58,126 nt of DNA, from the NCBI RefSeq assembly GCF_924101635.2, contig NZ_CAKMAA020000028.1, forward strand, positions 1 to 58,126. Direction: 5' to 3'. The position numbers and the translations under genes were made by a program. Shown one piece after another: positions 43,630-46,731 of the stretch. The notes beneath the pieces were generated by a model, which was given only the letters and a program-made list of their open reading frames with translations, did no database searches and was not told the DNA's origin. Source of the stretch: Candidatus Nitrotoga sp. HW29. Its GTDB lineage: Bacteria > Pseudomonadota > Gammaproteobacteria > Burkholderiales > Gallionellaceae. How positions within the stretch are numbered: the stretch's first letter is position 1; every line of letters begins with the position of its first letter.

Positions 43630-43989
43630 TCATTTGGTATTGTCTGGCACGAACTTGAGCACATTGCCGTTGATGCAGTAACGCTTGTGGGTAGGCGGAG
43701 GCCCATCGTCAAAAACATGTCCCAAATGGATGCCGGAACTGGCGCTCCTCACCTCGACTCGCCGCATGCCGTGTGCGACATCGACATGCTCGGTGATCGC
43801 CCCCTTGACCGGATTGAAGAAGCTTGGCCAGCCAGTGCCGCTGTCGAACTTTGTGTCGCTTCGAAACAACGCCGCGCCGGTGACCGGGTCGACAAATGTG
43901 CCAGAACGTTTTTCATCGAGATGCGAGCCGGTGAAGGGGCGTTCGGTGCCGCTTTCAAACGCAATTTTCTTCTGTTCGGGCGTCAGCAA
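43630..43989 (-). CDS. msrB: Methionine-R-sulfoxide reductase domain (MsrB), apparently frameshifted off the upstream thioredoxin-like gene
   Basis: A 119-codon MsrB domain that reduces methionine-R-sulfoxide: [54 protein letters not shown] and [12 protein letters not shown] with the catalytic Cys. The two CxxC zinc pairs of many MsrBs are replaced ([12 protein letters not shown] and RSASSGIH), so it is the zinc-free form. The only start is TTG without a ribosome site, inside the 3' end of the thioredoxin-like gene. A one-base shift there would fuse the two domains. Confidence 0.8.
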
Positions 43990-44410
43990 CTTGGTAGCCC
44001 AGCCATTTCCAGAAGCGCAACTGGTCGCCGCTGTAACCGGTAAACCGAGACACTTCGCGCCCCTTTTCGAAGAGAACGATGGTCGGCGTGGCGAACAGAA
44101 TTTTTCCCAGTTTCCAATCGGAGGGAGGGCTTGTGCTTAAGGTGCGGGTAACCACAATGTCGCCTTGCCAGTGACCGAGGACTTCCGACTCGAATTGCTT
44201 GCAATACGCGCAGTCGGCGGCTTCGAATACGATCAACTGGCGTTGAAAATTAAGCGCATTGGCATCCAAAGGCCGCTCCTTCGTGCCGTCTGGAATCCCC
44301 ACAGCTTGTGTGGTTGTGACGAACAACATAAACAAGAGAACTCTCTGAAGTGCCCGCCAAATAATAGTACCAATCCCGTCCACAGGAGCATCAAAGACCC
44401 ATTTATCCAT
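43955..44410 (-). CDS. Exported thioredoxin-like protein, N-terminal partner of MsrB
   Basis: A 151-residue protein with a hydrophobic export segment ([15 protein letters not shown]) and a thioredoxin fold: [20 protein letters not shown] (CxxC = CAYC), [38 protein letters not shown]. After FWKWLGYQV the frame drifts ([10 protein letters not shown]) and stops, while LTPEQKK of MsrB begins in the +1 frame exactly there. It should supply electrons to periplasmic MsrB. ATG at 44410 is chosen because GAGGT lies 8 bases upstream; earlier in-frame starts lack a ribosome site. Confidence 0.75.
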
Positions 44411-44546
44411 AATCAGCACCTCGCCAAAATACGTTTTGATAAAGCCTCCGACACGCAACGGAACTTCAAGTTTCTCCATAGTGGTCGCGGTTCTACAAAT
44501 CACCCCGAGCCCATCAAACTTTTATCCTACATTGGCTTTGAATGGT

Positions 44547-45365
44547 TTATTGCCCCACTGAAAGCGTATTGACGACTTCAGCGATGGAGTGAATCGTGCC
44601 CATGACGACGGGATTGCCCCAGCGTACGTTATATTTATTCTCTGGTATCTTGGCCAGTGACAGCACCAGATTGTTGAAAGCGCCGAGATCGTTGGTTTCA
44701 AAGTAGGTGATGAAGTCGGTATCGTCAAGCCCCGTGGAGTGATATAGCTTGCGCTTAACATTGCCAAGATAAGCCAGTGTCGGCAGTGTATGGGTTTCCA
44801 TTTCTTTCAGGCGCTGCTCGTCCGTCAGATTCCACCACTCCGCACCCTTCTTCACAGGAATCATGAAGGCGAAACGCGGCGCGTCGCCAGAATAAGTTGT
44901 GCCTGTCAAATCCTTGTTGAGGTCGGGAGATTTGTCCTTGGTAATATAGTTGAGTGCCTTGGTGATGCCAACTAGGCTTTCGGTGACCCCGGAATTCATA
45001 CCGAAACGGGTAGCGCGAAAATCGAGCAGGAAGGCTTGTGCCGCTGCCGCGTCATAGGCATGAACGCGCAGGAAGTAATCACTCTTGGCTTCGAAGCCCC
45101 GTGTCAGATAAGCATCTACAATGACCTTGTCCTTGTGCTTGTCGACCACCGCCATGACCTCGTCGGCAGCACCCTTGCGTTCGGCTGAGGAAAGTTTGTA
45201 ATACTCGTAGCGGATTTTGTAAGTGGAGAATGCGCCGAAAACACCTGGTGCAGTCAGGATTTTTGCACGATCCACCGGCTCCGACATGCTTCCTTGTTGT
45301 GCCATGGCACTGCCTCCTGCCAGAAGAAGGCAGATTGACAGAATGGTTGCAGTAATCTTGCTCAT
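44547..45365 (-). CDS. cld: Chlorite dismutase (chlorite:O2 lyase), periplasmic
   Basis: A heme enzyme turning chlorite into chloride and O2. The 272 residues start with a signal peptide ([20 protein letters not shown], cleavage after AMA). Motifs shared with perchlorate-reducer enzymes: [91 protein letters not shown]. The proximal heme His (His192 in METHT) and distal Arg (Arg205 in VKRK) are 13 residues apart, as His170/Arg183 in the Dechloromonas enzyme. AAGGAG supports this start; another in-frame ATG with AGGAG lies 18 codons upstream (45419). Divergent from sigF. Confidence 0.93.
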
Positions 45366-45480
45366 GCCTAAGCTCCTTTTCGGAAAAAAAGAAAATACAG
45401 TATAAAAAAGTTTGTTCATTTGAATCTCCTATTTAAATGGATAAATGGCGTCATCGCAAATGACCCGGTATCGTAAAATG

Positions 45481-45505
45481 ATCAGCACGAGTGTCTCGTG
45501 CTGAT
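45481..45505. promoter_or_regulatory. Perfect inverted repeat between cld and the ECF sigma gene
   Basis: ATCAGCACGAG-tgt-CTCGTGCTGAT, 11-bp arms with a 3-base loop, in the 191-bp divergent region. No T-tract follows on either strand, so an operator or an RNA stem in the cld leader is more likely than a terminator. Confidence 0.55.
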
Positions 45506-45506
45506 A

Positions 45507-45535
45507 CATTCGGATTTGCCAGAAAAATAGTTACA
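45507..45535 (-). promoter_or_regulatory. Candidate ECF-sigma promoter for cld
   Basis: On the minus strand TGTAACT (45529-45535) is followed after 15 bases by CCGAATG (45507-45513). TGTAAC/GTAAC at -35 and CGAA or CGTC at -10 are typical ECF promoter elements. It would put cld under the neighbouring sigma factor, with a leader of about 140 bases that contains the inverted repeat. This is inferred from pattern only. Confidence 0.35.
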
Positions 45536-45556
45536 TAAATAATTCGCGTAACTCGG

Positions 45557-46096
45557 ATGACAGATAACAACGATAATTTTGCAGCGTTGATGAGGCAGTC
45601 CCTGGATGGAGACCAGCTGGCCTATGCTTCCTTGCTGATGGAAACCTCACGCTTCCTGCGTCCGTTCCTTGCGAAACGCCTCAGCTTCACTAACGATGTG
45701 GATGACTTGTTGCAGGAAACCCTGATTTCTATTCATAAGGCCCGCCATACTTACGACGGCAACCGCCCCTATAAGCCATGGGTATACGCCATCGCCAAAT
45801 TCCGTTTGCAGGATTATTTGCGGGTGCATTATTCCGACCAACTGCGGCATGCCGTTGATTTCGACGAACTGGAAGAGAGCTTGTCTGGGCATGTAACCGA
45901 AACCGCTATTAGCTACGAATCCATCAGCGGGGAAATCCAAAAACTTCCAGAAAAGCAGGTGACCATCCTGCGGCTGTTGCATCAGGAGGGCTACACCGCC
46001 AAAGAGGTGGCGAAAAAGCTGGGTATGAATGAGTCTGCGGTAAAAGTCGCGGCGCATCGCGCCTACAAGGTATTGAGAGATAAACTGGAAAGATAA
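45557..46096 (+). CDS. sigF: ECF RNA polymerase sigma factor (SigF type)
   Basis: A 179-residue sigma factor. Region 2: RPFLAKRLSFTNDVDDLLQE, TLISIHKARHTYDGNRPYKP, WVYAIAKFRLQDYLR; region 4: LPEKQVTILRLLHQEGYTAK, EVAKKLGMNESAVKVAAHRA. The following overlapping gene encodes a DUF1109 membrane protein, the known partner (NrsF) in the SigF systems of Caulobacter and of Azospira, where the Azospira pair responds to hypochlorite. No clear ribosome site is seen. Confidence 0.9.
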   Translation: MTDNNDNFAALMRQSLDGDQLAYASLLMETSRFLRPFLAKRLSFTNDVDDLLQETLISIHKARHTYDGNRPYKPWVYAIAKFRLQDYLRVHYSDQLRHAVDFDELEESLSGHVTETAISYESISGEIQKLPEKQVTILRLLHQEGYTAKEVAKKLGMNESAVKVAAHRAYKVLRDKLER

Positions 46097-46731
46097 TGGA
46101 AAACATCGACGATCTTATCAACAGATTGGCACAGGATACGGCGGCAGTGAAGCCTGCCCCGCACCCTTACATGCTAAGCCTCAAATGGATGGGATGGGCG
46201 GCGACCTATCTTCTCCTGTCGCTCGTGCTTTCCGGCCTGCGCCCAGACCTGATGTTAAAACTGCATCAGCCATGGTTTGTCGCTGAAATCGCAGTGCTTG
46301 CCGGCATTTTCATCGCCACCTCGGTCAGTGCCGCGCTGCTTGCTTTTCCCGATCTGCACCAGATGCGTCGGCTTGCGTTTACACCGGTTGTTATGTTTGC
46401 GCTATTTGTTCTGGTGATGTTTCTCGCATGGCAGGCTGATAATCCGCCAGCTCCGCTACCTGTACATAGTTTTGAGTGCACCATCGGCATCACACTTATG
46501 TCGCTTTTGCCCGCAGCTTGGACATTTTTCGAGATGCGCAAATTTGCCAGTACGCATTATCACTGTGCGGGCAGCATCGCGCTGCTTTCCGCCTTCAGTG
46601 TCGGAGCATTGTGGTTGAGGCTGCACGAGGTAAATGATTCGATCATGCACGTTGTCGGGTGGCACTATCTGCCCATGATAGTTTTCGGTATCGCTGGCTT
46701 GTGGCTGGGAAAGCGCATGTTAAAGTGGTAA
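46096..46731 (+). CDS. nrsF: DUF1109 membrane anti-sigma factor (NrsF type)
   Basis: A 211-residue protein with six membrane helices (WAATYLLLSLVLSGL, EIAVLAGIFIATSVSAALLA, RLAFTPVVMFALFVLVMFLA, FECTIGITLMSLLPAAWTFF, AGSIALLSAFSVGALWLRLH, YLPMIVFGIAGLWLGKRM). The short N-terminal tail (IDDLINRLAQDTAAVKP) is the DUF1109 sigma-binding type. Periplasmic cysteine (FECT) is a candidate oxidant sensor. Its start overlaps the sigma stop (TAATG), as is usual for sigma/anti-sigma pairs. Confidence 0.88.
   Translation: MENIDDLINRLAQDTAAVKPAPHPYMLSLKWMGWAATYLLLSLVLSGLRPDLMLKLHQPWFVAEIAVLAGIFIATSVSAALLAFPDLHQMRRLAFTPVVMFALFVLVMFLAWQADNPPAPLPVHSFECTIGITLMSLLPAAWTFFEMRKFASTHYHCAGSIALLSAFSVGALWLRLHEVNDSIMHVVGWHYLPMIVFGIAGLWLGKRMLKW

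Follow-up and report, generated by a model that had tools for sequence, protein, structure and literature searches.

A cld module in an element at guaA

The window analyzed here is the 58,126-nucleotide contig NZ_CAKMAA020000028.1 of Candidatus Nitrotoga sp. HW29 (genome G000). At positions 43630 to 46731 it carries five genes, which encode a chlorite dismutase (Cld), an extracytoplasmic function (ECF) sigma factor with its membrane anti-sigma partner, a thioredoxin-like protein, and a methionine sulfoxide reductase (MsrB). A sequence-only reading of this DNA had placed these genes together after traG on a conjugative element, and the open reading frame (ORF) list and Pfam searches confirmed all five. 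The genes cld, trx-like, and msrB follow one another on the minus strand, with sigF-nrsF diverging from them on the plus strand:

43630 to 43989, minus strand: msrB, peptide-methionine (R)-S-oxide reductase (SelR, 146 bits; TIGR00357, 143.5 bits against a cut-off of 113)
43955 to 44503, minus strand: thioredoxin-like gene (Thioredoxin_2, 31.5 bits; 3d4t, E = 2e-4)
44547 to 45419, minus strand: cld, long-type chlorite dismutase (Chlor_dismutase, 94.7 bits in Pfam)
45557 to 46096, plus strand: sigF, ECF sigma factor (Sigma70_r2 and r4 in Pfam)
46096 to 46731, plus strand: nrsF, DUF1109 membrane anti-sigma factor (NrsF, 146 bits in Pfam)

The module Cld is a long, exported chlorite dismutase, predicted to split chlorite into chloride and oxygen. 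Its nearest solved structures are the chlorite dismutases 5a13, 5a12, 3q08, and 2vxh (E = 1e-104 to 1e-110), and the 18-residue active-site stretch is intact, including the His and the Arg that we take to be the heme ligand and the catalytic residue of this conserved region. The likely true start of cld is at position 45365, after AAAGGAG, and is followed by a signal peptide (both judged by eye). The MsrB sequence matches 22 distinct solved sequences, mostly MsrB proteins, while the thioredoxin-like protein has a CAYC motif and an N-terminal hydrophobic stretch and is probably periplasmic, also as judged by eye. The msrB gene starts at a TTG and overlaps the thioredoxin-like gene in a different frame (43955 to 43989); its frame is open upstream of the TTG as well (168-codon open frame), so that the two genes may once have been fused or may be coupled in translation.

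An ECF sigma gene followed by the gene of a membrane protein with an NrsF domain is the SigF/NrsF layout. The window SigF is 75 to 82% identical to the SigF of three other Nitrotoga loci, the nearest SigF/NrsF proteins of other Nitrotoga being 70 to 82% identical, and the nrsF of the module is the only one found in the genomes of the window strain and of strain LAW (G009). In an NrsF alignment that did not include the Caulobacter sequence, C128 was invariant in all eight rows. The SigF hypochlorite system of Azospira includes the methionine-rich peptide gene mrpX and yedYZ; a query for the MXKDX peptide alone found no match in L003, a copy of the module locus.

In Candidatus Nitrotoga, the module genes are cargo of an integrative and conjugative element (ICE) whose insertion point is the 3′ end of guaA. 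The remaining features of the element in the window are as follows:

23071 to 23082, plus strand: left attachment site, formed by the last guaA codons (GAGTGGGAATGA)
23381 to 24574, plus strand: tyrosine integrase gene (Phage_integrase, 82 bits; Arm-DNA-bind_3)
32202 to 43294, plus strand: F-type transfer genes, encoding TraB/TrbI, TraC, TraH, TraG, and others (Pfam)
43332 to 43406: 75-bp repeat directly 3′ of traG, probably an insertion sequence end
43407 to 43488: ICE backbone remnant common to genome G010 (82% identity over 79 columns, 43407 to 43485), after which the cargo starts
46890 to 47740, plus strand: group II intron pieces just 3′ of nrsF (Rfam RF02003 at 46890 to 47030, RF00029 at 47591 to 47740)
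55453 to 57452: actin-like ParM-type gene (minus strand) and replication initiator RPA gene (plus strand) (Pfam)

Past guaA the window runs into the integrase gene. From position 23,083 to 58,126, 35,007 of 35,044 bases are identical to a 168,712-bp contig of another Nitrotoga genome (G007, contig C31), versus 85 to 92% identity per kilobase, about 88%, for the chromosome to the left of the guaA stop (5 to 23 kb). Identity climbs at the guaA stop from about 88% to 100%, on which ground an ordinary chromosomal cluster was rejected. The 37 bases at which the two ICE copies differ are all confined to positions 28,029 to 28,897, a pattern as after recombination. The attachment core GAGTGGGAATGA is repeated in G007 at the right end (C31, position 165627), and its first part is found in contig C82 of the window's own genome, which matches the right end of the G007 ICE over 1,235 bases and departs from it at the core. 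With both ends located, the ICE measures about 96.5 kb in G007, and there the full-length copy encodes TraU and, beyond the reach of the window, a coupling protein and TraI_2, which we take to be the relaxase. In other genomes the right ICE flank of G007 is found apart from guaA, so that the empty site is deduced from a 45-bp, 84% match in G003 and the junction common to contig C82. With an integrase, attachment sites, and a transfer system the element is an ICE, and its transfer is predicted from these genes. The proposal that the cluster is cargo of a conjugative element is supported.

The comparison with G010 defines the module as cargo, since that genome has a matching tra operon (95 to 97% identity) and shares the backbone up to about position 43,485, and then continues with unrelated genes and without NrsF. 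The 75-bp repeat and the short backbone remnant separate the end of traG (43294; TraG_N, 256 bits) from msrB. G010 lacks the repeat at the corresponding spot, and full or partial copies (84 to 98% identity) lie at several places in other Nitrotoga genomes. The whole module was found in three of the 19 genomes of the genus. A 3,402-bp stretch containing it recurs at 100% identity in two other Nitrotoga genomes, with all five frames open; in LAW, where this stretch is identical, the ICE portions before 36 kb are 91 to 97% identical. The ICE module has been shared recently between strains.

Other observations on the element concern its mobile insertions and further cargo. No maturase was identified between the group II intron ends 3′ of nrsF, where no search by family was made; a maturase gene lies elsewhere on the same ICE (G007:C31 154166 to 155920). 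At 134461 to 138185 of the same contig (L037) the ICE carries a gene with a PAPS-reductase domain followed by an AAA ATPase gene, a pair that we presume could be a defense set of the DNA phosphorothioation type.

No chlorate or perchlorate reductase genes had been in view of the module, and none was found on the whole ICE either. The Molybdopterin family (PF00384) has three matches each in G000, G007, and G009, and none of the three of G007 lies on the contig that holds the entire element; this statement rests on G007 because the ICE is split over contigs in the other two genomes. The idea that the element carries a dedicated chlorate reductase was accordingly rejected, and the element was not classed as a perchlorate reduction island because neither pcrAB nor another dedicated reductase was found. 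Judged from their N-termini and neighbors, the three PF00384 genes of G000 look like those for NuoG, an alternative complex III subunit, and a Tat-exported NxrA. One of them encodes a 1,169-residue protein with a twin-arginine start. Such a start has been described for the periplasmic NxrA of Nitrotoga in the passages available to us (PMC6050957), and according to PMC10504367, likewise seen in part, nitrite oxidoreductase (NXR) converts chlorate into chlorite. The host is a nitrite oxidizer, and if its NXR makes chlorite from chlorate, the missing reductase would be explained, with the host enzyme as the likely chlorite source.

Relatives of the module and a SigF-type promoter facing cld

Eight outside Cld loci were opened. 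In three of them (L005, L006, and L008) sigF adjoins cld in divergent orientation. The sequence-only reading had taken an absence of sigF/nrsF from the cld loci of all relatives as the result that would speak against it, and these three loci show otherwise. They belong, with L007, to the four outside loci whose Cld is 66 to 77% identical to that of the module. L005 and L008 have SigF, NrsF, and a molybdopterin reductase (SigF and NrsF of L005 by BLAST only), L006 is a 3-kb contig with SigF at its edge, and L007 has a reductase and no SigF/NrsF match. L005, from a member of the Rhodocyclaceae, also has two further cld-like stretches (5176 to 5619 and 13729 to 13838) around its main cld. Together, the identity of the 3,402 bp in two other Nitrotoga genomes and the recurrence of a cld gene divergent to a SigF gene in three of the eight outside loci indicate that the arrangement is not due to chance.

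The ICE Cld, which is 100% identical to the proteins of Candidatus Nitrotoga SPKER and LAW, clusters in the Cld tree with those of L005, L006, L008, L028, and L029 (support 96/95), that is, with the sigF-linked Clds and those of the chlorate transposon. A second, different Cld (55 to 59% identity) is encoded in 15 of the 19 genus genomes, including all three ICE carriers; the eight of these included in the tree all lie with L120 across a 100/100 branch from the ICE Cld. Four chromosomal cld loci were opened (L079, L080, L104, and L105), and none shows a match to SigF/NrsF. At that of the window strain (G000:C13, L080 8554 to 8682) an msrB remnant of 43 residues adjoins cld and no msrA match was found, unlike G006 (L079), which retains msrB, msrA, and cld in a row.

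Among the 399 genomes surveyed from the order, 14 had any Cld match, and a near full-length, long-type Cld was found only in G000, G017, and G385, the last at a locus with reductase genes and no SigF/NrsF match. The possibility that the cld module is common on plasmids was discarded: Cld matches occurred in 15 of 72,556 plasmid records, five of them over at least 80% of Cld, module DNA was matched in four records, never over 80%, and no SigF/NrsF match was present in the stretches fetched from three opened records.

The 137-bp gap between cld and sigF contains two further features:

45509 to 45534, minus strand: SigF-type promoter GTAACT-N16-CGAA, facing cld
45481 to 45505, minus strand: perfect hairpin (11-bp stem, 3-base loop) where the cld mRNA is predicted to have its 5′ end

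The site differs by one base from the Caulobacter SigF promoter consensus, given as GTAACC-N16-CGAA in the portions of PMC3511200 that we saw. GTAACY-N16-CGAA has a single exact match in the window, this one, and eight sites with at most one mismatch; the probability of a SigF-type site in the gap was 0.0003 by mononucleotide shuffling. Exact N16 sites occur in three of the four cld-sigF gaps: one in the window, facing cld; two in L006, one toward each gene; and two in L005, both facing sigF, where the cld-facing site has one mismatch. The gap of L008 has one site with N15 spacing, facing sigF. Upstream of cld genes without sigF there was no site in any of seven loci, even at one mismatch (L007, L028, L029, L030, L120, L079, and L080). 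The hairpin, scored at a stem of at least 8 bp, was absent from the four other gaps tested.

In other Nitrotoga, SigF/NrsF faces an exported msrB-DsbD-like-msrA operon, and all three such loci (L074, L076, and L077) have an exact site toward msrB. A SigF-type site is also present within a 700-bp stretch of L081; none was found in L075 and L078, two loci without an msrB match opposite sigF. The window strain retains this operon (G000:C7, L102 6963 to 9862) without the facing sigF-nrsF that is present in G006, G017, and G007, and there is no SigF-type site upstream of it. Over all loci gathered, 43 matches to the motif were counted in 993,553 redundant bases.

The proposal that cld, sigF, and msrB form one circuit is strengthened by the promoter facing cld and by the sigF adjoining cld at three outside loci. 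The trx-msrB genes behind cld would be transcribed with it, and msrB thereby co-regulated.

Interpretation and alternatives

We read the cluster as a cargo unit for inducible chlorite defense, carried by the ICE at guaA in Candidatus Nitrotoga, and give this reading a probability of roughly two in three. Oxidized chlorine, most likely chlorite and hypochlorite that arise from chlorate reduction by the periplasmic NXR of the host, would disturb NrsF in the membrane and free SigF, which would transcribe cld, and probably also the trx-msrB genes behind it, from GTAACT-N16-CGAA. Exported Cld would then split chlorite into chloride and oxygen, and oxidized methionine would be reduced by MsrB together with the thioredoxin-like protein. 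Both the inducing signal and the benefit to the host are inferred here.

Several points weigh against this sequence-based reading. The window NrsF scores 39.4 bits against the cut-off of 300 of the NCBIfam model AntiSigF_NrsF and is for that reason not an equivalog of the modeled NrsF, and the second conserved cysteine seems to be replaced in it and its close relatives, in the alignment without the Caulobacter sequence. MsrB has no evident export signal (by eye) and a TTG start. No SigF/NrsF match was found at five of the eight outside Cld loci (L007, L028, L029, L030, and L120), and an exact site faces cld in only two of the four gaps (window and L006). The motif was first spotted by eye against a known consensus, and it was tested in relatives afterwards. 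No sigF-facing site that would indicate autoregulation was found in the window at zero or one mismatch with N16 spacing; a match with N17 spacing and one mismatch overlaps the start of sigF. Genome-wide, the motif was not enriched over a reversed-pattern control (7 versus 17 matches in G000, 11 versus 14 in G007, 8 versus 19 in G009, and 14 versus 18 in G006), and prediction of a SigF regulon failed for this reason.

The cluster could instead be the leftover of a chlorate or perchlorate reduction island after loss of the reductase, with cld and its SigF promoter as the sole part still functional and trx-msrB as bystanders. L005 and L008, where sigF lies beside cld on a contig of sufficient length, do carry a molybdopterin reductase adjoining cld, and the 3′ part of msrB (43587 to 43871, minus strand) matches by blastn, over 285 bp with 95.4% identity, a fragment of the Ideonella/Alicycliphilus chlorate transposon. 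All five frames are nevertheless open and identical in three strains, and a host with NXR can meet chlorite without a reductase on the element, which makes this origin unlikely in our judgment, if worth keeping in mind. SigF/NrsF might also answer another stress, such as a metal or a different oxidant, and Cld be induced by a cue other than chlorine; in Caulobacter, where the promoter pattern is the same, the pair responds to chromium and cadmium, according to the passages of PMC3511200. We consider this improbable, as the SigF target by position is cld and the close SigF relatives in three other Nitrotoga loci face msrB-DsbD-like-msrA. That an insertion sequence simply put cld beside a separately regulated sigF-nrsF would fit the repeat fragment at the left edge of the module, the group II intron pieces at its right, and the five outside Cld loci without SigF/NrsF match, but the divergent cld-sigF arrangement is seen again in L005, L006, and L008, where every gap contains a SigF-type site, and mere chance neighborhood is very hard to credit.

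Known systems and meaning for nitrite oxidizers

The sequence-only reading went too far in holding that a mobile combination of cld with SigF/NrsF had not been described, since the parts of PMC9751292 and PMC4623255 available to us cover the ingredients. The former names as neighbors of Cld sigma factors termed "RCS-sensing," anti-sigma factors of the DUF1109 family, and Msr systems, the same association as here, and reports two acquisitions of Cld by Nitrotoga as a recipient; the passages seen give no account of the present ICE with its trx-msrB unit, nor of the SigF-type promoter. In PMC4623255, the perchlorate reduction genomic island (PRI) has sigF/nrsF among its key genes; it resembles our module in having cld, sigF/nrsF, and methionine sulfoxide repair and in having moved horizontally, once conjugatively; the island of D. 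aromatica RCB is an ICE, and whether this ICE itself has sigF/nrsF is not stated in those passages. Unlike the PRI, the Nitrotoga element has no perchlorate or chlorate reductase that we found, is a different ICE at guaA, and resides in an aerobic nitrite oxidizer.

In the composite chlorate reduction transposon of Ideonella and Alicycliphilus (L028 and L029) Cld is about 75 to 76% identical to ours and the 95% identical msrB piece (96% over 79 amino acids in MsrB) adjoins cld in both hosts, which suggests that the cld-msrB units of the ICE and the transposon share an ancestor. The transposon differs by its clrABDC genes, MXKDX peptide, and cupin and by the lack of a sigF/nrsF match, and the Ideonella cld is described as FNR controlled (PMC7349173, seen in part). 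Caulobacter SigF/NrsF is alike in its ECF sigma factor, NrsF anti-sigma factor, and GTAACC-N16-CGAA promoters and differs in its chromium and cadmium response, its regulon, and its two conserved NrsF cysteines (PMC3511200, same passages). A clc-type ICE of Stenotrophomonas, of a different ICE family, has a hypothetical cld among its acquired resistance genes, the passages seen mentioning neither sigF/nrsF nor msr (PMC11823659). In the open-licence literature, as covered by titles, abstract beginnings, and passages, we found no description of a reductase-free, SigF-linked cld as ICE cargo. What is new, from ingredients each known, is this reductase-free, SigF-linked ICE version in a host with another Cld and with NXR as a likely chlorite source.

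Chlorate is a standard inhibitor of nitrite oxidizers, used in field and laboratory work. We tentatively suggest, with well under even confidence, that the ICE spreads inducible chlorate/chlorite tolerance among nitrite oxidizers, the SigF-controlled second Cld guarding against chlorite from their own NXR. If so, chlorate would hit ICE-positive and ICE-negative strains unequally, and the module, if active, would confer transferable resistance to chlorate and chlorine disinfection by-products. The promoter-level prediction ties cld to SigF/NrsF, and chlorite defense would move as compact, apparently self-regulated cargo, without a respiratory reductase, in an environmentally important nitrite oxidizer.

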